DNA of 64,000 nucleotides from Halobaculum sp. XH14 (GTDB lineage Archaea; Halobacteriota; Halobacteria; Halobacteriales; Haloferacaceae), in contig NZ_CP134949.1 in assembly GCF_032116555.1 (NCBI RefSeq), forward strand, positions 2,108,001 to 2,172,000. Direction: 5' to 3'. The position numbers were made by a program, and so were the translations under genes. Each line of letters opens with the position of its first letter. Position 1 is the first letter of the stretch. Below are positions 41,929 to 52,428 of the stretch, piece after piece. The notes beneath the pieces are model-generated. The model searched no databases. It saw nothing but the letters and a program-made list of their open reading frames with translations, and was not told the DNA's origin.

Positions 41929-42119
41929 AGATACGCAACTCGATGATGGATACTAAAGCCTACGTATCGCTCATCAGTGATCCTGAGCAAGTTTACTCAG
42001 GAGAGAGTTACCGAATCCCTCCGGTGTGTCACTATGAATGCAGAGGCATCCAAAGGGTAAAGATGCGATCATGGGGCCTCGATGAACGAGTTCTACTGCA
42101 CCCTGTGATCCAGATCGGT

Positions 42120-43562
42120 CTACTGAACCGGAATGTTCTCGGTTACCTTCAACCTGAACCTTCCCGAGATCAAGAAGAGGAGACCGAAATATACCGTAGC
42201 ACCGAAGGTCACCGCCGGGATGACGATCCTGACCTCGAACGGACTTGCTCCGATAGTCTTAGAGGAGTACAGTACGGCCTTTACCAGCAATCCCATGATG
42301 ATTGCGGCGACCACTTGCTTCCGAATCTCTTTCCAGGGAATAGTGAAGGTGAGAATCCTCCCGAGGAGGAAGTAGGCGAAAACGAACCCACAAACCACCG
42401 AGACGAGGGTTGCTACAGCAGCACCAAGCCATCCAAAGTAGAAGACTAAGAGGAAGTTCAACACGATGTTCGACCCGACGAAGAGGATGTTCGCCTGGAA
42501 GGAAAGGTCCGGTCTGTCGAGGGCATCAATCGTGCTAACTACCTGTCGGTAGTAACTGTGAACGAGAATGGATGCGACCAGCAACACCAAAATGGCGTAC
42601 CCTTGCCTGAATTCGCTGCCATACAGGTTCAGAACCCCTTCACCAACGACTACCGATCCGACGAAACCGGGGATCACGAACAGTCCGGAAAAAGCGAGGG
42701 TGTCATCGAGGTAGTTGACGATCCTCGGCCGGCCGGCTTCACCCGATAGCCTGCTCATTTCGGGGAAGAACGTACTGCTCAACGATTTCGAAAAGATCCC
42801 CATGACCGTCGCGATATTCCAGCAGATCGAATATATCCCGATCAGACTGGATGAGACGAAAAACCCAAGCACTAATTTGTCCATTAAGCTATATGTTCCG
42901 CCCTTCGCCCGCTCCAACCAGGAATACTTCGCAAAGTTAGTGATACTAGAAAAATGGCTCCTATCCGGCACTGTCATACCCAATGAACGGCCGAAAAGAG
43001 TGGGGAGGAGGATGATCGCGGCCAACCCGACCGAAATAAAACTCACAATTTCGCCGCCGAGTAACGCAAAGATCGAAAGACCAGCGGCTACACCTGCAAC
43101 CTGAAGTGTGATACGAGATACGCTCTGAGAGATTCCAAGCGCAGCTTCTATGTGAACGAGGTGGTCGCCTCGGAACACGGCCATCACCACGGAGAAACCG
43201 ATCCGCCCAAAAAGCAGTAAGATCACCACCCAATACAGCGGTGCCCCCAGATATTGGTTGATCTGACCGCGAAACAGGAAGATTCCAGTCGACGTCGCCG
43301 AGGTAAGAGCGAGGATCAAAACCGCTCCGGCGACGATGTGTTGACTCTTATCGACGCCTTCGCTCACACGTTTCGTGATGGACTTGGTGATCCCTGCCTT
43401 TGCGACGATGGTCAACCAACCGACGACGGCAAGCACGAGAAAGTAGTCACCGAGTATTGCTGATCCGAGTTCACGTGCGAAATAGACCGTCGCAAAGAAC
43501 CCCAGTACTGAGGAACCGATCTTCGAGGCGAAGAATATCGCAGACTTTTGACCGAGTCGCAC
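42120..43562 (-). CDS. polysaccharide flippase (Wzx/MATE-like, AglR-type)
   Basis: This 480-residue protein has 12-14 predicted membrane helices. It starts MRLGQKSAIFFASKIGSSV with FATVYFARELG, the usual start of RfbX/Wzx proteins, and has an internal YSLMDKLVLGFFVSSSLIG that marks the second half. It should move a lipid-linked glycan or lipid-linked sugar across the membrane. In Haloferax AglR serves this role for mannose-charged dolichyl phosphate. G+C is visibly lower than in flanking housekeeping genes. Confidence 0.85.
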   Translation of the reverse strand: MRLGQKSAIFFASKIGSSVLGFFATVYFARELGSAILGDYFLVLAVVGWLTIVAKAGITKSITKRVSEGVDKSQHIVAGAVLILALTSATSTGIFLFRGQINQYLGAPLYWVVILLLFGRIGFSVVMAVFRGDHLVHIEAALGISQSVSRITLQVAGVAAGLSIFALLGGEIVSFISVGLAAIILLPTLFGRSLGMTVPDRSHFSSITNFAKYSWLERAKGGTYSLMDKLVLGFFVSSSLIGIYSICWNIATVMGIFSKSLSSTFFPEMSRLSGEAGRPRIVNYLDDTLAFSGLFVIPGFVGSVVVGEGVLNLYGSEFRQGYAILVLLVASILVHSYYRQVVSTIDALDRPDLSFQANILFVGSNIVLNFLLVFYFGWLGAAVATLVSVVCGFVFAYFLLGRILTFTIPWKEIRKQVVAAIIMGLLVKAVLYSSKTIGASPFEVRIVIPAVTFGATVYFGLLFLISGRFRLKVTENIPVQ

Positions 43563-43697
43563 GGTTTAGCGGGCGCCCGGCGAACACATATCCTTTTCTG
43601 TCTACACGGGGACCGAGCCAGAATCCAGCCCGCGATCGGGGCAACCGACCGAAAGTATCAATCCCTTGGAATCATTCGAGTCGTTCACCCATCTCGC

Positions 43698-44498
43698 TCA
43701 TCTGCTGGCGACGATGTGGTGCGTGTTGAGTTCATCGAGCTTCCGTCCTGGCCAGCTCTGCTGGTAATGTTCTCGGATCCGTGTCACATTATATCCATAG
43801 TCCTGAAATAGATCTTCGATTTCTTCGGGGGAGCGACCTTCTGCCGCCTGCACGTCCACGTCGTGGTGAAGCTCTATGATCCACGTGCAGTCAGTGTTCA
43901 GCAATTCCTCCGAGGACGGCAGCACTTCATACTCCCAGCCATCGATATCCATCAGGACTACGTTCGGAGTACCGAACTGGTCGACGTAGTCGTCGAGGGA
44001 CAGGACCGATTCCTCGACGATCGAAATGTTGTCGAAGTCGTTCCGGTCAATCGACCTGCGAAGAAGCTCTGTCCGCGACTCATCCGGGTCGAACGCAACC
44101 GCTCTGTTTATCGATTCGCTCAGTAAAAGAGAATGATAACCCCACCCTGCACCGACTTCCCAGAAGTCGTCTTGCTCGTCCAGATTCGCGATCAGTTCTT
44201 CAACTACCTCCGTTTCGTACTCGCCAAGCACTCGGTGATGAATGTGGGGCGAATCAAGTTCGTACCAGAAACTGAACGCGGGAGTATTCTCGATGACGGG
44301 CGAGACGTTATACAGCGCGGTATATCCGATCGCCAAGGGCGATGAAACCATCCGCCCAGCATACCAGTCAGCGAATTTGTAATAAACGAGTTGAAGCTCT
44401 TTGAGAAGGAAGATCAAAGCACGAACGACGAGCCGAGAGAACCCTTTATCGCGGCGGATCCGACGAGCTTCCCTTGTTAATGAGAGTTCGGTGTCCAT
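43698..44498 (-). CDS. FkbM-family methyltransferase
   Basis: This 266-residue protein has the SAM-binding loop VGAGWGYHSLLLS, then VAFDPDESRTELLRRS and VLMDIDGWEYEVL, as in FkbM-type O-methyltransferases. It probably methylates a sugar or lipid-linked glycan. Start 44498 was chosen because the TATA-like GATTTTATC (44522-44531) lies about 26 nt upstream. The open frame continues upstream without support. It is divergently arranged with the sulfatase-like gene at 44716. Confidence 0.85.
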   Translation of the reverse strand: MDTELSLTREARRIRRDKGFSRLVVRALIFLLKELQLVYYKFADWYAGRMVSSPLAIGYTALYNVSPVIENTPAFSFWYELDSPHIHHRVLGEYETEVVEELIANLDEQDDFWEVGAGWGYHSLLLSESINRAVAFDPDESRTELLRRSIDRNDFDNISIVEESVLSLDDYVDQFGTPNVVLMDIDGWEYEVLPSSEELLNTDCTWIIELHHDVDVQAAEGRSPEEIEDLFQDYGYNVTRIREHYQQSWPGRKLDELNTHHIVASR

Positions 44499-44521
44499 GG
44501 GTCGAACGGACAATCGAAGAT

Positions 44522-44531
44522 TGATAAAATC
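44522..44531 (-). promoter_or_regulatory. TATA-like box of the FkbM gene
   Basis: GGATTTTATC on the minus strand, 24-33 nt before the ATG at 44498. Confidence 0.55.
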
Positions 44532-44681
44532 CCGCCCCCGGAAATCAGGATTGAGAACCAGGCCATCGAGAACTATAAGGATGATTCTGCATGTGATTTT
44601 GAAGTTATACTCGTTCGTTCTTTTCAGTCTTAGTCGTGGCGCTGGCCGGTGGGATGTACTAGGTCCGGAAGAGCTAACCGT

Positions 44682-44692
44682 ATTTTTAAGCA
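44682..44692 (+). promoter_or_regulatory. TATA-like box of the sulfatase-like gene
   Basis: ATTTTTAAGCA, 24-34 nt before the ATG at 44716. It decides between this start and the long upstream open frame. Confidence 0.6.
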
Positions 44693-44715
44693 TATGGGCG
44701 GACTGCTGCAGTTCA

Positions 44716-45693
44716 ATGGCCCGTCATTACACACTCTCCAATCTGTCTCGTGTGCTGCAGGACCCAAGTCTGCTCCAAAACGAGTTTCGCCGAATCAATC
44801 GAAAACTCAACTCCACGTTGTTTCGAAACCGACAACAGAACGGTTTCGACGTGTTGAGCGCGGACTGGGACAACCTGATAATTCTTGACGGGTGCCGCTA
44901 CGAGGTTTTCGAGGACCATCATACGTTCTCGGGAGATCTTTCTCCCATCTATTCGCAAGGGGCTCATAGCAACGAGTTCATGCAGGCAACGTTCGCTGAT
45001 CGACAACTCCACGATACGATTTACATCACGTCCAACCCGTGGTCGGAACAACTCAGTGATGACACGTTCTTTCTCACGAGGACAACATACACGGAGAGCG
45101 AACAGGGTGGCGAGGCGAGACTTCCCGAGGACGTTGCCAAACTAACACTTGAGACGTTTGAGGAGTACCCGAACAAGCGGTACATCATCCACTTCATGCA
45201 ACCGAACAACCCGTACGTTGGACCGATTGCGGAGGAACTTCGGGAGAAATTATTGACGAGGAACGGCGTCCTCTGTACTGAACTTGGCCTGACGAGTGCG
45301 AACACAACTACGACCATAACCGATGAAGTCCCCCACCTCAGGCGTGCGCTCAGGAAAGGATACATCACTCGACAGCAGATGCTTGAAGTGTATACTGAAA
45401 ACTTGAAGGAAGTCACTCGACACTCGAAGCGCGTCATCAACGAATTGGGTGGGAAAACAACACTAACGAGTGACCATGGAGACATGTTCGGAGAACGCCT
45501 CCCCCCGCTCTATCTGAAGGACTACTCTCACTGGGAAGGGGTCCACAGCGACGTGTTACGGCGTGTCCCATGGTTCGAAATGGACTCACAGAATCGCCGG
45601 GACATCGAGGGCGGTGAGCCGATTCGAGAGGAACGAATCGGGGCGAGTGGTGTCGAAGAACACTTGAAGAGCATGGGATATCTCGCGGATTGA
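44716..45693 (+). CDS. alkaline-phosphatase/sulfatase superfamily protein (short form)
   Basis: This 325-residue protein has the first metal aspartate in LIILDGCRYEVFE (Asp58), the second metal site TSDHGDMFGE, and ends VEEHLKSMGYLAD as sulfatase relatives do. The nucleophile position is replaced: SQGAHSNEF stands where C/S-x-P-S-R is expected, so the residue may be Ser or the protein may be inactive. There is no signal peptide or membrane segment, so it is cytoplasmic. A role as glycan sulfo/phospho-transferase or hydrolase is inference. Confidence 0.75.
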   Translation: MARHYTLSNLSRVLQDPSLLQNEFRRINRKLNSTLFRNRQQNGFDVLSADWDNLIILDGCRYEVFEDHHTFSGDLSPIYSQGAHSNEFMQATFADRQLHDTIYITSNPWSEQLSDDTFFLTRTTYTESEQGGEARLPEDVAKLTLETFEEYPNKRYIIHFMQPNNPYVGPIAEELREKLLTRNGVLCTELGLTSANTTTTITDEVPHLRRALRKGYITRQQMLEVYTENLKEVTRHSKRVINELGGKTTLTSDHGDMFGERLPPLYLKDYSHWEGVHSDVLRRVPWFEMDSQNRRDIEGGEPIREERIGASGVEEHLKSMGYLAD

Positions 45694-45846
45694 TTGTGAT
45701 CAACAAGACGATCGTAGTGAAACAAGAGAGACCAGCCAGAGAAGACCCATGAGAAGAACTAAATCGACCATCGAGACGACCACGGAGAGTCACATCGGGA
45801 GAGTACAACAGCGAAGTGCGATCCGGCATCATTCCAGTGCTCAGAA

Positions 45847-46914
45847 ATGTTAGACATCCGTAGCCAGCTGGCGAAATCCGATCTGATCAAGCGAACATTC
45901 GAAGGGAGCCGGGAGAAAGTATCTCAACTCTATCGAGCTCTACACGAGAGCGATAGTATGGAAGAGTACAGATCACTTCGCACCGAGTCTAGCATTGGAC
46001 TGAAACCGTTAGAATCCGAGGAAGGAGTATTCCGGAAAGGAGCTAATTTGAAGCCACACCCTGACGCTCCGAATCCAGTGTTGACCAAGGATGACGTTGA
46101 CGACGTCCTCACTCGGTTCGTCGCCGATCCATTCATTGTTTATGAAAGTGGCGTGTACAATCTCTTTTTCGAAATAAAATCAATTGGTGGAAACGTCTTT
46201 ATCGGTCACGCCTTCAGCGAAGACGGACTCGAGTACACTTACAATCAAGTCGTTATTGAACCCGAGTTTGCTCAGCACACCTACCCATATGTCTTTAAGT
46301 TGGATGGGCAGTGGATGATGGTTCCGTCCCCAGGAGCCAACGTCAATGGTCAGTTTCGCGTCTACGAAGCAGTCGATTTTCCCATTGAATGGCGACTGAG
46401 AGCCGTACCAATTCAAGAACGTGTGCGACAGGATCCCACACCGATCTTCCACGACGACAGATGGTTCCTTATATACCAAGATACAGACACATGGGACGTC
46501 GAACTGAAGCATTCCGATTCCCTTTTTGCGGACGAATGGAACACCCATCCGGCCAGTCCAATATTCGAAAACGACCCAAAGGAGATAGCAAACTGTTCAA
46601 TCGGTGGTGCCGAGATGGTTCCTTCGGGGCGACCGATTTACAACGGCGATTCCGTCGATCTATTTTACAGATCCCACATCAATCGAGAGGTCTACCACTA
46701 CCGGATTACAGCGCTAACTGAGGACACGTTCGAGCAGCACCGGTTCTCCGACTCGACCGTTTTTGAAGGCTTGAAAACGAACGAGTGGAACCGACGGTTC
46801 ATGCACACGGTGAATCCAGTTTACCCGTGGATGTCTGATGAGCCCAGAGTTGCCGTCGACGGGCTCAAAGCCGATAGCTACGAGTGGAGCATCGGGATAT
46901 ATACCATCGATTGA
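45847..46914 (+). CDS. five-bladed beta-propeller glycan protein (GIPC-transferase/GH43-like)
   Basis: This 355-residue soluble protein has FVADPFIVYESGVYNLFFE, YPYVFKLDGQWMMVPSPGAN and DPTPIFHDDRWFLIYQDTD, the repeated blades found in glycosyl hydrolase 43/32 propellers. They also occur in the C-terminal part of plant glucosamine inositolphosphorylceramide transferase and bacterial capsule proteins. A catalytic role as glycosyltransferase is possible, but no active site can be assigned. Low G+C. It stands before the NeuB gene in the same direction, with 109 nt between. Confidence 0.65.
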   Translation: MLDIRSQLAKSDLIKRTFEGSREKVSQLYRALHESDSMEEYRSLRTESSIGLKPLESEEGVFRKGANLKPHPDAPNPVLTKDDVDDVLTRFVADPFIVYESGVYNLFFEIKSIGGNVFIGHAFSEDGLEYTYNQVVIEPEFAQHTYPYVFKLDGQWMMVPSPGANVNGQFRVYEAVDFPIEWRLRAVPIQERVRQDPTPIFHDDRWFLIYQDTDTWDVELKHSDSLFADEWNTHPASPIFENDPKEIANCSIGGAEMVPSGRPIYNGDSVDLFYRSHINREVYHYRITALTEDTFEQHRFSDSTVFEGLKTNEWNRRFMHTVNPVYPWMSDEPRVAVDGLKADSYEWSIGIYTID

Positions 46915-46986
46915 CTTCGGGAACGATTGGCAGTGAATCTGTAATGTACTGACCTTGAACCATGACGCAGGCCCAATACTGAGAAA

Positions 46987-46997
46987 GGATTAAATCC
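46987..46997 (+). promoter_or_regulatory. TATA-like box of the NeuB-type gene
   Basis: GGATTAAATCC, 27-37 nt before the ATG at 47024, consistent with a leaderless transcript. Confidence 0.5.
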
Positions 46998-47023
46998 TAA
47001 CGAGCACGGGCCTTTGCATAGAC

Positions 47024-48046
47024 ATGGTTGGCCAAATTGAATTTCTCAACGGGAACGAACCCTACATAATAGCGGAGGTCGGCGGAAACCACGGCGGCAG
47101 CGTAGACAAGGCGAAAGACTATGCAACTGCCGCTGCGGAGGCCGGTGTCGATTCGGTCAAGTTTCAGCTCTATCAGGCAGAGAACTTGATAACGAAGGAT
47201 GAACCTCCGCTTCCACTTGCCGGTGACGAGTACGAGTCGCAGTACGAACGGTTCAAAGAACTGGAGTTGACGCGGTCGGAATGGCGGGACGTTATCGATC
47301 ACTGTTACTCCCTCGGGGTCGATTTTTCCGCTAGCGTCTTCGATGCCGAAATGCTCGAATTTGCGATAGACGATATGCCGTTTATTAAAATCGCATCGGG
47401 TGACCTCACAAATCTTCCGCTCCTACGAAAGGTACAAGAAACTGGGAAGCCGATCGTGCTCTCTACCGGATTTTCGACCTTCGAAGAGATTCGGCGAACG
47501 ATGACCCTCCTTTCCGACGCCAGCGTCGTCCTCCTCCACTGTATGGGGTCGTACCCGACATCCGATGAGGACGCGAACCTCATGATGGTTGAAGCCCTCC
47601 AGAATGAGTTCGACACACCGACCGGATATTCCGATCATACGGTGGGGATACTTGCCCCGATCGCTGCCGTAGCTAGGGGGGCGCAAGTCGTTGAGAAACA
47701 TTTCACACTGGATAAATCCAAGAAGGTAGGTGACCACCGCCTATCGGCAACACCTGAACAGATGGAGGAACTGGTGGACGAAAGTCGGCGCGTTGCCAGG
47801 ATGAGCGGTCGGGCACGCGATAATGAGGTATATCTCCCGGAAAAGGAGATACGTAACGATATGCGTCGGAGCCTGGCGACGAAAAAATCAATTAAAGAAG
47901 GAAAAACGATCACTGAGGAGGACTTGACAGCGTTGCGCCCTTCCGACGGCGTCTCACCGATGCGTCTGGATGAGGTCATCGGTACTTCCGCGACGAGGAA
48001 CATCAACGCCAATCAGATCCTCCAAGAGTCCGATTTCGGGGGCTAA
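47024..48046 (+). CDS. NeuB-family nonulosonic (sialic-acid-like) acid synthase
   Basis: This 340-residue protein has the synthase barrel start PYIIAEVGGNHGGSVDKA, VDSVKFQLY, FIKIASGDLTNLPLL, SDHTVG with the conserved His, and VEKHFTLDKSKKVGDH. An antifreeze-like SAF domain follows (about 280-340, RRSLATKKSIKEGK, ITEEDLTALRP). The family condenses phosphoenolpyruvate with an N-acyl hexosamine to form neuraminic, legionaminic or pseudaminic acid. The upstream genes for the hexosamine substrate are not in the window, so they must lie elsewhere or the acceptor is different. Confidence 0.88.
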   Translation: MVGQIEFLNGNEPYIIAEVGGNHGGSVDKAKDYATAAAEAGVDSVKFQLYQAENLITKDEPPLPLAGDEYESQYERFKELELTRSEWRDVIDHCYSLGVDFSASVFDAEMLEFAIDDMPFIKIASGDLTNLPLLRKVQETGKPIVLSTGFSTFEEIRRTMTLLSDASVVLLHCMGSYPTSDEDANLMMVEALQNEFDTPTGYSDHTVGILAPIAAVARGAQVVEKHFTLDKSKKVGDHRLSATPEQMEELVDESRRVARMSGRARDNEVYLPEKEIRNDMRRSLATKKSIKEGKTITEEDLTALRPSDGVSPMRLDEVIGTSATRNINANQILQESDFGG

Positions 48047-48102
48047 CTCGGTTAGAACGGACGGAACACAGTTCCAGAACAAAAGCACGATATAAATACT
48101 CA

Positions 48103-49545
48103 ATGACAGGTACAAAGGTCAGCGTCATCATCACTGCACACAACTATGCAGAATATCTGGAAGAGTCGATAGATAGCGTCATAAACCAAACATACGACGA
48201 ATTCGAATTAGTAGTCGTTGATGACGGTTCTACGGACGAGACACCACAGATACTCCGAGAATACACTTTTGAATACCCCGAGAAGATCAAGGTAGTTACA
48301 TTAGGTGGGGAGGGCCTCCCGACTGCCTGTAATCGAGGTATCGAGGCTGCGGATGGAGACTACATTATCCGGCTCGACGCAGACGATTACTTCGACGAAA
48401 ACGTACTGACTGTTGAGGCATCGTACCTCGATGCCAACCCCGACGTCGATCTGGTCTACCCTGATTACTACACGGTCGACGAAACCGGCGATCTCATCGA
48501 TCACGTAAGACTTCCTAAAGTTGGTGACGAAGTGAAACTGCTCGACAGATCACCGCTGGCAGCAGGTGCGATGTATCGCCGCGAATCCTGGGAGAAACTC
48601 GGAGGATACAATGAATCACTCAGTTATCAAGAGGATTACGATTTTTGGATTAAATTCGTAACAGAGTTTGAAGTCCGTAACGTCAACTTGCCACTCATGT
48701 ACTATCGCCAACACGGCGAGAGTATGTCGACAAATTTCGCCGAACGGATGAACGCTCGTCGGAACGTCAAGCGTGATTTCGTCGAGGAAAACGTCGACTA
48801 TGGTGACATCGAAGTGTTAGCGATGATTCCAGCAAGAAGGGAGAAACGAGTCGATTTACCTGACGGAGGGACAGATTCGCTCGCCCTGAAAGAATTGGCT
48901 GGACGGCGATTGATCGAGTATACCATAAAGGAAGCACAGAGTTCGAACCACATAGATCGCTTGATCGTCTCCACCGAGGACGAGGAGATAGCAAGCGTAG
49001 CGAAAGCAATAGGTTCAGAGGTTCCATTCCTTCGTGACTCTGAGCTAAGCTCACCAACTACACAGCTCTCAGAAGTCACCGCTTCACTTCTCGAGAGACT
49101 ACGACGTGAGGAAGGATATGATCCCGACGTTATTGTCGTTCTTCCGTACGTTTCTCCACTTCGGTCCACAGACCACATCGACGAAGCAGTTGACACTAAG
49201 GTTATGTTTTCAGTGGATTCAGTTATCAGTGTTTACGAGAATAACGAGTTCCTCTGGCGACCCGGAAAGTACGGATTGGAGCCTCTGTTCGAGGAACGCC
49301 TCCTCCGGCGGGAGCGGGAGACAACTTACCATGAAAACGGTGCCATCTACGTTACGACACCGAACGTTGTCCTCAACCAAGACGACCTGATCGGCCGACA
49401 CGTGGGACACGTCCTCATGCAAGAAAGCGTCTCGGTTCACATCGACTCCGTGTTCGATTATCGTACATGTGAGAATATTATAATGTCCGGCGAGATGACC
49501 ACGTTCTCGAATACCGAACTCGACGGATCCGGTGAGGACTCCTAA
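48103..49545 (+). CDS. fusion: GT2 glycosyltransferase + CMP-sialate synthetase-like domain
   Basis: This 480-residue protein has two domains. Residues 1-230 are a GT-A family 2 glycosyltransferase (SVIITAHNYAEYLEESIDSV, DDGST at 40-44, metal DAD at 92-94). Residues about 237-475 resemble acylneuraminate cytidylyltransferase: LAMIPARREKR (242-249) in place of IPARGGSKR, LIEYTIKEAQSS, VSTEDEEIASVA, VVLPYVSPLRS and a final NGAIYVTTP. It starts 56 nt after the NeuB gene. The loop is altered, so activity of the second domain is not certain. No frameshift separates the domains. Confidence 0.8.
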   Translation: MTGTKVSVIITAHNYAEYLEESIDSVINQTYDEFELVVVDDGSTDETPQILREYTFEYPEKIKVVTLGGEGLPTACNRGIEAADGDYIIRLDADDYFDENVLTVEASYLDANPDVDLVYPDYYTVDETGDLIDHVRLPKVGDEVKLLDRSPLAAGAMYRRESWEKLGGYNESLSYQEDYDFWIKFVTEFEVRNVNLPLMYYRQHGESMSTNFAERMNARRNVKRDFVEENVDYGDIEVLAMIPARREKRVDLPDGGTDSLALKELAGRRLIEYTIKEAQSSNHIDRLIVSTEDEEIASVAKAIGSEVPFLRDSELSSPTTQLSEVTASLLERLRREEGYDPDVIVVLPYVSPLRSTDHIDEAVDTKVMFSVDSVISVYENNEFLWRPGKYGLEPLFEERLLRRERETTYHENGAIYVTTPNVVLNQDDLIGRHVGHVLMQESVSVHIDSVFDYRTCENIIMSGEMTTFSNTELDGSGEDS

Positions 49546-50261
49546 TCCATATTGTGCTCACCTAACTCAGTATTATCTACGTATGTAACTGCATCCGTGA
49601 TGTCCAAGAGACCGTCGTAGTCGACGTTGGCATACACTTCTTCGAACAGTTGGAAGTCATCGGGAGTATCAAGAGTGAAACGGAGATCAGTCCTATTTTG
49701 CATATATCTCTCGTCAAACACCTGATCGGAGGACACGTTCGATGTTGTGAACGAATCGGAGGACCGGTAGTATGGCGTGACGTGCTCCCGCTCGTGTGGA
49801 GTTTTAGCTTCCTTGTTGACACGTTTGAAACTCTCGTACGTGAACACCTCCACGTCCAGACCCGCAGGAAACGTTCGTTCGATCTTGTTCGAAACATAGT
49901 CCACTTGGTCCTCGCGTGCCAATTGGATGGCGACATCGAGCACTTCGGGCGATAGTAGTGGGTTATCCGCCGTTATCCGCACGATCAGATCCGCTTCGTT
50001 CACCGTCGCTGACTCGAAAACACGGCCAAGAACGTCCGTTTCCTCTCCCCGATACACTTTCACCTCTTCTCTACGTGCGTGGCGTGCCACGATGTCGTCA
50101 CGACTATTGTTTGACGTCGCGACGACGACATCGTCGACATCGCTTGCACTGGTCCGCCGAATCACGTGCTGAATGATCGGAAGACAATTCAGCGAGATCA
50201 TGACCTTTCCGGGGAGTCGTGAGGAGCCCATTCGGGCCTGTATAACGGCAACGACGTTCAT
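49542..50261 (-). CDS. SpsF-type cytidylyltransferase
   Basis: This 239-residue protein has the motif QARMGSSRLPGKVM (8-21), VVATSNNSRDD, VYRGEETDVLGRV, DLIVRITADNPLLSP with the metal Asp, and VDYVSNKIERTFPAGLDVEVF. SpsF proteins belong to the CMP-sialate-synthetase-related group and activate sugars in glycan clusters. It may supply the CMP- or CDP-sugar used locally. It ends by overlapping the convergent fusion gene by 4 nt and follows the GT-B gene by 25 nt on the minus strand, hence a two-gene transcript. Confidence 0.85.
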   Translation of the reverse strand: MNVVAVIQARMGSSRLPGKVMISLNCLPIIQHVIRRTSASDVDDVVVATSNNSRDDIVARHARREEVKVYRGEETDVLGRVFESATVNEADLIVRITADNPLLSPEVLDVAIQLAREDQVDYVSNKIERTFPAGLDVEVFTYESFKRVNKEAKTPHEREHVTPYYRSSDSFTTSNVSSDQVFDERYMQNRTDLRFTLDTPDDFQLFEEVYANVDYDGLLDITDAVTYVDNTELGEHNMD

Positions 50262-50286
50262 TGTGGGTAACGAAAACTCACACCAC

Positions 50287-51714
50287 CTACGTCTTATAAC
50301 CGTCCTCTCGCGCTTCCCCGAGATCGTTGATAGACTTAACGAAGTCTCCAGGAGATTTGCTCGCAAAGAAGTAATCGGTCTCAAAGGAGTTGACATTCGT
50401 CTCCTGCCTGGTAGCGTAGTCTGCTGGGTCCGAGATCAGTTTTGCACAGCCAAGTTCCAGAAGTGGACCCAGATATTCGTGCCCCGGCAGGTCCAGTACG
50501 TACGTGTCCAGATCGAAATAGAGACCTTCGAACAGAGCCGTGGAGTACACACCGATTTGGGCGGACGATTCGGAGAGGAGTTGATAGAGCGGAACTTCGT
50601 CACTCACTACCTCTACGTCCGCGGTTTGAAGCCAGGGGTACTCCTTGGTCCACGTGTCATACTCCTTCGGGTGGAGTTTATAGACGATGTGCTGGTGATG
50701 GTCGTCCCGGTCGGCCAAGGCAACTGCAAATCGCGAGAGCTCCTCCGCGATCACCGATTGGGAGATGAAGACGACCTGTTCCGTTTCACGTTCGTCGGCA
50801 TACTCCTTGGCCCTCTGTTCGAGGAAGGGGTATCCAACCGAGTGAATGCGTCCGTCCGGCAACGGAAAGTCGACCGTCTCCCTCCAGAAATCACCGAAGG
50901 CGAAAAAGTAGTCGGGGAAGACGCGCTTCGTCCCTCCAGGGTAAGAGTACCCGAGGTGGTACTTTGTTATCACGCCGTGCTGCAGTTCGACGACGGGGAT
51001 ATCCTCAAGGTGACAAGCTTCGACGAACGTTTCCCGCCCATTGTAGCTGGTTACGAGAAATGCGATTTCTGGCGAAAGGCGGCCAAGCAGTTGGCGGAAC
51101 ATTGGGAGACGCACACGTCGTCGAGACAAGTCGCGTCTCACTAGATTCGTCAGCGGGATTTCGACGCCAAATCGGGAGTCAATCTCTGCTGCGATGTCTG
51201 CCAGGAAGGTGGAGTCCTCACGAGATAGCAACACCGTACCGACCCCTAGTTTCTCACACAGTGTTCCAGTGTACTCTATGAGATCCGTGTATCGGAGGTT
51301 CTCGGTCTTGGCTGGTTTTCGGTGAGATATTTGATAGGGGCGTTCCAGGCACTCGTAGCTCTTATCAACGCGTTCAATGATGGGGTCCAGATAGATGTCC
51401 CACCAGAGCCCATCGTCCAGCTGCTTTCGACGTCCAGTCCCGTAGAAGACTAATTCCGTATCGGCCCCGAGGTACGGGTTTCTGAACAATGCGTTCCTGA
51501 GGAGAAGACCGGCACCCGAGAGGTACTCGTCGATTCCATCACCCGAGTCACCGCCTCCCTCGTTGGGGTGGAGTTTCTCGACCAATCGTTGATGGATTCT
51601 GAACCGGACTCGTTCCCAAAAGTACACGCCACATATCTTCCTGTCCAAAAGCTCCTTCTCGTCTTCCAGACGGATGAACTCCTCATAGAGATTCCCGAAG
51701 CTCTGTCCGCTCAT
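50287..51714 (-). CDS. GT-B-type glycosyltransferase, capsule/polysialyltransferase-like
   Basis: This 475-residue soluble protein has VVELQHGVITKYHLGYSYPG, HSVGYPFLEQR, QVVFISQSVIAEELSRFA, VYKLHPKEYDTW and AQIGVYSTALFEGLYF. That is the GT-B pattern shared by CDP-glycerol glycerophosphotransferases, sialyltransferases and capsule enzymes. Next to NeuB- and SpsF-type genes it is a candidate transferase for a CMP-activated acidic sugar (inference). Start 51714 was preferred over 51837 because of the TATA-like AAATATGAG about 28 nt upstream. Confidence 0.72.
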   Translation of the reverse strand: MSGQSFGNLYEEFIRLEDEKELLDRKICGVYFWERVRFRIHQRLVEKLHPNEGGGDSGDGIDEYLSGAGLLLRNALFRNPYLGADTELVFYGTGRRKQLDDGLWWDIYLDPIIERVDKSYECLERPYQISHRKPAKTENLRYTDLIEYTGTLCEKLGVGTVLLSREDSTFLADIAAEIDSRFGVEIPLTNLVRRDLSRRRVRLPMFRQLLGRLSPEIAFLVTSYNGRETFVEACHLEDIPVVELQHGVITKYHLGYSYPGGTKRVFPDYFFAFGDFWRETVDFPLPDGRIHSVGYPFLEQRAKEYADERETEQVVFISQSVIAEELSRFAVALADRDDHHQHIVYKLHPKEYDTWTKEYPWLQTADVEVVSDEVPLYQLLSESSAQIGVYSTALFEGLYFDLDTYVLDLPGHEYLGPLLELGCAKLISDPADYATRQETNVNSFETDYFFASKSPGDFVKSINDLGEAREDGYKT

Positions 51715-51882
51715 TGTCGTCGGATGGACGATCGTATGCTCATATTTCGCTCTGACGATCCTGTAGCCTGATCGTACATTTGACGGATCCTTTGGGGAGT
51801 TCGTTACCGCACTGTCCTCAGATGCTGCCGACAACACTTATAACTCCCCGATAACGAACCATATCACCAACTCCAAACTCAG

Positions 51883-52428
51883 ATGATATCGAAGCTCCTT
51901 GCGGACTCATACGATGTATTCTACACGATCCGAACGTGGTTGGAGAGAGAATATTACACGTTCAAACTCACTCAACAAGCTCAGGAAGTCGGGGACGATT
52001 TTATCGTGAACGGCCCCAGCCGACTCTCCCCGAACTCGGTGATCGGAACCAACGTGAAGTTCAACGGAATGGAAGTACGTGGTGACGGCTACCTGAAAAT
52101 CGGCGATAACTTTCGGTCAGCTCCAGGGTGTAAGATCGTCACCAGAAATCACGACTACGATGACAGCGATGCCGTTCCCTATGACCATTCCTACGTGCGG
52201 AAGGACGTGGAAATCGGAGACAACGTCTGGTTCGGTGTCAACGTCATCGTGGTTCCGGGAGTGGAAATCGGGGAAGGTGCGATCATCCAGGCGGGGTCAG
52301 TGGTAACTCAGGACGTTCCAAAGGGAGCAATCGCGGGTGGCCACCCTGCTGAAGTTTTCTCTTACAGGGACATGGAGCATTACGAACGGCTGAAAGAGGA
52401 AGGGAAGTTCGTTCCACCTTCCGCATAA
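51883..52428 (+). CDS. LbH (left-handed beta-helix) acyltransferase
   Basis: This 181-residue protein has a hexapeptide-repeat region ([44 protein letters not shown]) and the catalytic His90 in TRNHDYDDS, as in WbbJ/maltose-type O-acetyltransferases. It probably acetylates a sugar of the glycan. The short N-terminal helix (1-30) may be amphipathic. It is divergent from the GT-B gene, and an ATATCACC box about 20 nt upstream could be its promoter. Confidence 0.85.

Follow-up and report, generated by a model that had tools for sequence, protein, structure and literature searches.

The joining of a glycosyltransferase to a CMP-sialate synthetase (NeuA) is itself already known, by the annotation of Campylobacter jejuni NeuA1 as a bifunctional beta-1,4-N-acetylgalactosaminyltransferase/CMP-Neu5Ac synthase (PMC8698899, PMC9978446). 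In the legionaminic acid (Leg) pathway of Bacillus subtilis, the family 2 glycosyltransferase (GT2) SpsA is not the CMP-Leg transferase. The putative cytidylyltransferase SpsF of the same pathway is required for Leg transfer and dispensable for Leg synthesis, and without it Leg is present in the mother cell and missing from the spore surface (PMC7439481).

In canonical NeuA, Arg12, Ser15, Lys16 and Lys21 contact the phosphates and Asn22 contacts the ribose. The arm is the least conserved part of the enzyme and extends into the active site of the other subunit (PMC6580227). Mutation of the Neisseria enzyme gave no measurable activity for D209A, a 15,000-fold slower enzyme for D211A, and an inactive or nearly inactive enzyme for R165A (PMC2901514). 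Here we describe a gene of Halobaculum sp. XH14 whose product, on balance, appears to combine a GT2 with a catalytically dead pseudo-NeuA kept as a dimerisation or docking module in a nonulosonic acid pathway.

Results

The fusion gene and its neighbours

The gene lies in a window of 64,000 nucleotides, which is the whole stretch of DNA that was analysed (Table 1). The earlier note had described one uninterrupted frame joining a GT2 to a CMP-sialate-synthetase-like domain directly behind a NeuB-type synthase, and our analysis agreed with it: the frame contains no internal stop, both Pfam domains were detected, and NeuB ends 56 nt upstream. The Glycos_transf_2 match spans residues 7-127, and the profile of this half matches PDB chains of chondroitin synthase, TarF and SpsA. 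Residues 90-95 read RLDADD, and this DxD motif (RLDADD or RLDGDD) was present in 6/6 of the fusions described below. DxD is typical of NDP-sugar GT-A enzymes, and sialyltransferases usually lack it.

The second half, in which the NeuA-like domain proper covers about residues 236-460, was recognized by two families. CTP_transf_3 matched residues 262-329 (E 1.2e-9, above the curated cut-off), and NCBIfam PseF matched residues 261-457 (E 6.5e-22, 78.3 bits), with a score that fails the PseF equivalog cut-off (205.7 bits). Both matches start only past the nucleotide loop.

Table 1. Features of the fusion locus, with positions in the window.
Feature	Position	Strand	Basis or remark
NeuB-type nonulosonic acid synthase with SAF domain	47024..48046	+	E 3.8e-72
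GT2 and NeuA-like (putative pseudo-cytidylyltransferase) fusion gene	48103..49545	+	480 aa; architecture recurs in five other genomes
GT2 (GT-A) domain, residues 1-232	48103..48798	+	Pfam PF00535 Glycos_transf_2, E 5.3e-35
NeuA-like domain, residues 233-480	48799..49542	+	AlphaFold2 and Foldseek
Remodelled nucleotide-binding loop, residues 241-262 (MIPARREKRVDLPDGGTDSLAL)	48823..48888	+	Lys21-Asn22 replaced by Leu260-Ala261
Dimerisation-arm equivalent, residues 376-412, with Arg402 in the place of catalytic Arg165	49228..49338	+	most conserved part of the haloarchaeal fusions
His446 at the position of Mg-binding Asp209	49438..49440	+	1EYR alignment; His in 4/4 haloarchaeal fusions
SpsF-like cytidylyltransferase, loop intact (IQARMGSSRLPGKV)	49542..50396	-	PF02348, E 2.5e-32
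Putative GT-B transferase	50287..51837	-	43% homologue of a gene adjoining the fusion in G418

The genome of Halobaculum sp. XH14 contains one NeuB. A CTP_transf_3 search of this genome returned exactly two proteins, the fusion and the SpsF-like protein, and no canonical NeuA. The SpsF-like gene is convergent with the fusion and overlaps it by 4 nt; its translation likely starts at residue 46, an ATG near 50261. Despite the NeuB, a genome search for NeuC (TIGR03568) gave no match.

The putative GT-B protein is a candidate CMP-nonulosonate transferase. Neither phmmer nor profile searches gave it a meaningful PDB match or a confident family, and a single-sequence structure model, made to address this transferase role, had a pLDDT of 32, too low to be of use. 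Its homologue in G418 gave a sub-threshold polysialyltransferase hint (E 0.25). Directly 5' of NeuB, 45847-46914 (+) encodes a protein that matches GINT1_N (E 5.5e-24), a domain from the N-terminus of glucosamine inositolphosphorylceramide transferase in plants. The glycan cluster at 42000-52000 has a G+C content of about 50%, compared with about 70% on both sides, which suggests horizontal acquisition.

The same fusion in other genomes

Searches covered the class, three haloarchaeal families and the phylum, and bacteria were covered by tblastn of plasmids. Three more haloarchaeal fusions were found, in G332 (L004), G371 (L005) and G418 (L085), with full-length identities of 57-62% to the Halobaculum sp. 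XH14 protein. The phylum-wide search added G589, an archaeon of another class (E 1.9e-82), and a search of that class gave no second copy. In bacteria, plasmid p6 of Azospirillum argentinense carries a fusion (WP_103041587.1) that is annotated simply as 'glycosyltransferase family 2 protein' and has both Pfam domains above cut-off. The occurrence in other archaea that the earlier note had suggested looking for was thus found four times, and once more in a bacterium. Because the same architecture occurs in six independent genomes, a sequencing or assembly artefact is excluded. The fusion was not found in the viral contigs or phages searched.

Two candidate relatives were rejected. A 494-aa frame in L010 (G313) joins NeuA to a histidine kinase through a run of N, which suggests a gap in the assembly or masked sequence rather than a fusion. 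The GT2 and NeuA of Rhodobacteraceae SC52 are two separate genes, with the loop intact. Fusions of another kind were also observed. In two haloarchaea (L049, L076), canonical NeuA is fused to a PseG-like half in frames of 549-579 aa. Adjoining a NeuB, L044:514-3168 (-) and L050:1366-3147 (+) encode NeuA-PseG fusions in which the loop is unusual (PARGTSPGLPKKHF) and departs once more from the standard NeuA loop.

A NeuB was present near the fusion in 6/6 genomes, and so was a separate loop-intact cytidylyltransferase, which is a NeuA in three of them and SpsF-like in the other three. The gene order in G332, G371 and G418 is fusion, canonical NeuA, NeuB. G589 has the order SpsF-like, NeuB, fusion, and in Halobaculum sp. 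XH14 the fusion comes after NeuB and faces the convergent SpsF-like gene. In Azospirillum the SpsF-like gene overlaps the fusion and a short NeuB lies a few genes upstream; this NeuB (L192:4973-5671) is 232 aa long and has no SAF domain. In 4/6 genomes, the stop codon of the fusion shares bases with the ATG of the live cytidylyltransferase.

The NeuA fold is predicted to be kept

The second half (residues 230-480) was modelled alone with AlphaFold2, because a full-length MAFFT alignment put the NeuA loop onto the GT2 domain. The input alignment also contained 37 canonical NeuA proteins, which came from viral contigs and from two bacterial genomes. The model reached a mean pLDDT of 90.2 and a pTM of 0.87, and the nucleotide loop was the least confident block within the folded core. 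Foldseek against the PDB ranked CMP-sialate synthetases first (best 6ifd, E 2.6e-22; further 9t4z, 9ftc, 1eyr and 1qwj). An alignment input of canonical NeuA biases the model toward the NeuA fold, and the Pfam, NCBIfam and phmmer matches are independent of the model. The predicted fold of the second half is that of CMP-sialate synthetase (NeuA) with its dimerisation arm. This result bears out the nucleotidyltransferase fold on which the earlier note had let its reading of the second half depend.

Catalytic residues are replaced

The nucleotide loop of the fusion reads IPARREKRVDLPDGGTDSLALKELAG, compared with PARGGSKG(I/V/L)PxKN in canonical NeuA. The earlier note had read IPARREKR here in place of the glycine-rich loop. 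That reading was correct, and the loss was clear against 72 canonical sequences (37 viral or bacterial and 35 haloarchaeal). The Lys-Asn pair was present in 72/72 canonical sequences and 0/6 fusions. Asp78 was found in 71/72 canonical sequences and in 0/4 of the haloarchaeal fusions scored; neither feature played any part in collecting the canonical set. GSK was absent from 6/6 fusions, and its perfect conservation in the canonical set is partly due to selection, since it formed part of the patterns used for the collection. The complete loop ARxGSKxxPxKN with Lys16, Lys21 and Asn22 occurs in 0/6 fusions.

Residues were mapped by phmmer alignment to the Neisseria CMP-sialate synthetase (1EYR). 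Lys21 corresponds to Leu260, Asn22 to Ala261, Gln104 to Pro348, Arg165 to Arg402, Asp209 to His446 and Asp211 to Asp448. Asp209 was replaced in 6/6 fusions (His in four, Gly and Phe in one each); the canonical sequences have Asp in 51/72 and mostly Glu or Asn in the remainder, and His in none. Asp211 was kept in 5/6 fusions, haloarchaeal copies included. The Mg-binding pair of Asp209 and Asp211 is thus incomplete in 6/6, through the loss of Asp209. The change from Gln104 to Pro was rejected as a mark of inactivation, since Pro also occurs in 6/37 canonical sequences.

Some residues of the pocket are retained. Arg71, which serves cytosine recognition in NeuA, has an equivalent (R311) in 5/5 archaeal fusions. 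The Arg12 equivalent is R245 in the Halobaculum sp. XH14 copy and is lost in G371 and G418. In place of the loop, the four haloarchaeal fusions share a new E-x-R motif, which is missing in G589 and Azospirillum. From these replacements we infer that the NeuA-like domain is very likely catalytically inactive. With their Arg71 and Asp211 equivalents, the haloarchaeal copies may still bind a nucleotide or sugar.

Constraint on the fused domain has apparently shifted

Among the four haloarchaeal fusions, the NeuA-like half is 48-55% identical and the GT2 half 67-75%; in the haloarchaeal comparison, the neighbouring live NeuA is 53-59% and NeuB 52-60% identical. For the NeuA-like half, pN was 0.31-0.38 against a pS of 0.61-0.89, with synonymous sites largely saturated. 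In the tree, a single clade (100/100) with a long stem branch unites the four haloarchaeal fused domains, apart from the neighbouring NeuA. When G589 was included, the fusions grouped in 98% of bootstrap trees, with a very long branch and uncertain placement for G589. The tree did not support the idea that the domain arose when the neighbouring NeuA was duplicated in tandem, since the partner NeuAs fall elsewhere in it.

The distribution of conservation within the domain differs from that in the canonical enzyme. Mean pairwise identity of the loop region was 49% in the four haloarchaeal fusions versus 67-81% in canonical clades, and that of the dimer arm was 75% versus 53-69%. Over stretches of 30 columns, conservation of the fused domain peaks at 384-413, within the arm; in 3/5 canonical clades it peaks in the loop. 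When positions were rotated within the fusion set by itself, the observed loop-to-arm contrast was equalled or exceeded in 10.5% of rotations. The evidential weight for shifted constraint is in the contrast with canonical clades rather than in the rotation test. Arg402 is kept in 5/6 fusions; the Azospirillum protein has no equivalent and its arm is not conserved.

On these results, it is highly probable that the NeuA-like domain is maintained for some function. With its catalytic residues lost and the domain apparently maintained by selection, it would qualify as a pseudoenzyme.

Discussion

Possible roles of the NeuA-like domain

We consider it somewhat more probable than the alternatives taken together that the NeuA-like domain serves dimerisation or docking. 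The GT2 half probably uses an NDP-sugar and extends with it the same glycan to which the nonulosonic acid is attached. The pseudo-NeuA half would retain the NeuA fold and the dimerisation arm, give up CTP chemistry, and assemble the GT2 at the nonulosonic acid branch, either as a homodimer or with the live cytidylyltransferase of the pathway. The sugar made by NeuB would be activated by the adjoining SpsF-like protein, with no part for the fusion in this step. Since the partner alternates between NeuA-type and SpsF-type, one conserved hetero-interface is less likely, and a homodimer, loose docking or simple pathway linkage is favoured. A heterodimer is favoured, in the three NeuA-type genomes, by the conservation of the arm and by the overlaps of start and stop codons.

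The partner enzyme could also be controlled directly, with the pseudo-NeuA arm pairing with live NeuA or SpsF, Arg402 acting in trans, and the GT2 thereby tethered to CMP-nonulosonate production. The arm is what the fusions conserve best, and Arg402 is kept in 5/6, while their own pocket is destroyed, and the overlap with the gene of the live enzyme fits such control. The live enzyme, however, is SpsF-like rather than NeuA-type in three genomes, including Halobaculum sp. XH14, and the Azospirillum fusion has no Arg402, so we regard this control as rather unlikely. We give slightly less credit to the broader idea that a mixed dimer, in which the dead NeuA-GT lends arm and Arg402 to a live cytidylyltransferase, is a principle common to archaea and bacteria. 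The domain might otherwise be a sensor regulating the GT2, able to bind CMP-nonulosonate or a nonulosonic acid but not to turn it over, as the R311 of archaeal fusions and the haloarchaeal E-x-R motif could indicate. The fusions have lost Asp78 and the residues that bind phosphate and ribose, though, and the motif does not extend to G589 or Azospirillum, and we find this role less probable again.

An active bifunctional enzyme with an unusual loop, with the domain activating the product of NeuB for transfer by the GT2, seems improbable. It would agree with the intact fold, with R245, and with the lack of a canonical NeuA in the Halobaculum sp. XH14 genome. However, the equivalents of Lys16, Lys21, Asn22 and Asp209 are lost, as is Arg12 in G371 and G418, and a separate intact cytidylyltransferase is always present. 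A GT2 with DxD is also unlikely as a CMP-nonulosonate transferase: given this motif, its usual absence from sialyltransferases, and the finding that SpsA is not the CMP-Leg transferase, 'activate and transfer' is most likely wrong. The channelling of a freshly activated nonulosonic acid within one polypeptide, which the earlier note had considered, is unsupported on the same evidence, since the fused domain lacks the residues needed for activation, the separate enzyme occurs in 6/6 genomes and the GT2 carries DxD. Least probable is a neutral relic of an old fusion with a functionless second half. Lost catalytic residues and the long stem branch would suit it, but the frame is open in six genomes across large distances, identity is comparable to that of the live NeuA and NeuB neighbours, and non-synonymous differences are well below synonymous ones. 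Of the 'regulatory relic' that the note had offered as its other reading, the non-catalytic part probably stands; the relic part does not, as conservation of the domain reaches beyond genus, class and domain of life and its constraint has been redistributed.

Significance

Annotation pipelines would read the fusion as another bifunctional enzyme, and the evidence points instead to a maintained pseudoenzyme. To our knowledge, few enzymes are known for archaeal nonulosonic acid transfer. If confirmed, a sialic-acid-type pseudoenzyme would show how archaea organise this transfer. Halobaculum sp. XH14 should not be called NeuA-positive, as SpsF is the likelier activating enzyme, and we infer that its SpsF-like protein activates the NeuB product. 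Open PMC texts yielded no description of a pseudo-NeuA half that is maintained, in archaea and a bacterium, next to a live cytidylyltransferase.

Comparison with known systems

The fusion has the fold and the dimer arm in common with NeuA, LegF and PseF (CTP_transf_3; 6ifd, 1eyr, 9ftc), and its haloarchaeal copies also share the equivalents of Arg71, Arg165 and Asp211. Unlike these enzymes, it has the glycine-rich loop, Lys21-Asn22, Asp78 and Asp209 replaced, and it sits behind a GT2. C. jejuni NeuA1 resembles it as a natural joining of glycosyltransferase and NeuA in a sialic acid locus, and also in that the transferase, by annotation, adds GalNAc rather than sialic acid. Compared by annotation, NeuA1 is active, whereas the NeuA half of the fusion looks inactive and is accompanied by a separate intact enzyme. 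In the haloarchaeal NeuA-PseG fusions (L029/L049, L076), a NeuA domain is likewise joined to another pathway enzyme, but the loop is intact and the partner domain is a different one.

The sps legionaminic acid locus of B. subtilis has the same parts, namely SpsA (GT2), SpsE (NeuB) and SpsF (cytidylyltransferase); that study presents SpsA as a GT2 enzyme and mentions no NeuA-like extension such as the fusion has (PMC7439481). LegF of Halorubrum sp. PV6 likewise belongs to a pathway for nonulosonic acid that is encoded in the glycosylation cluster of a haloarchaeon. In the parts of that report available to us, LegF is a stand-alone enzyme shown to be active, and a fusion is not mentioned (PMC6137143).
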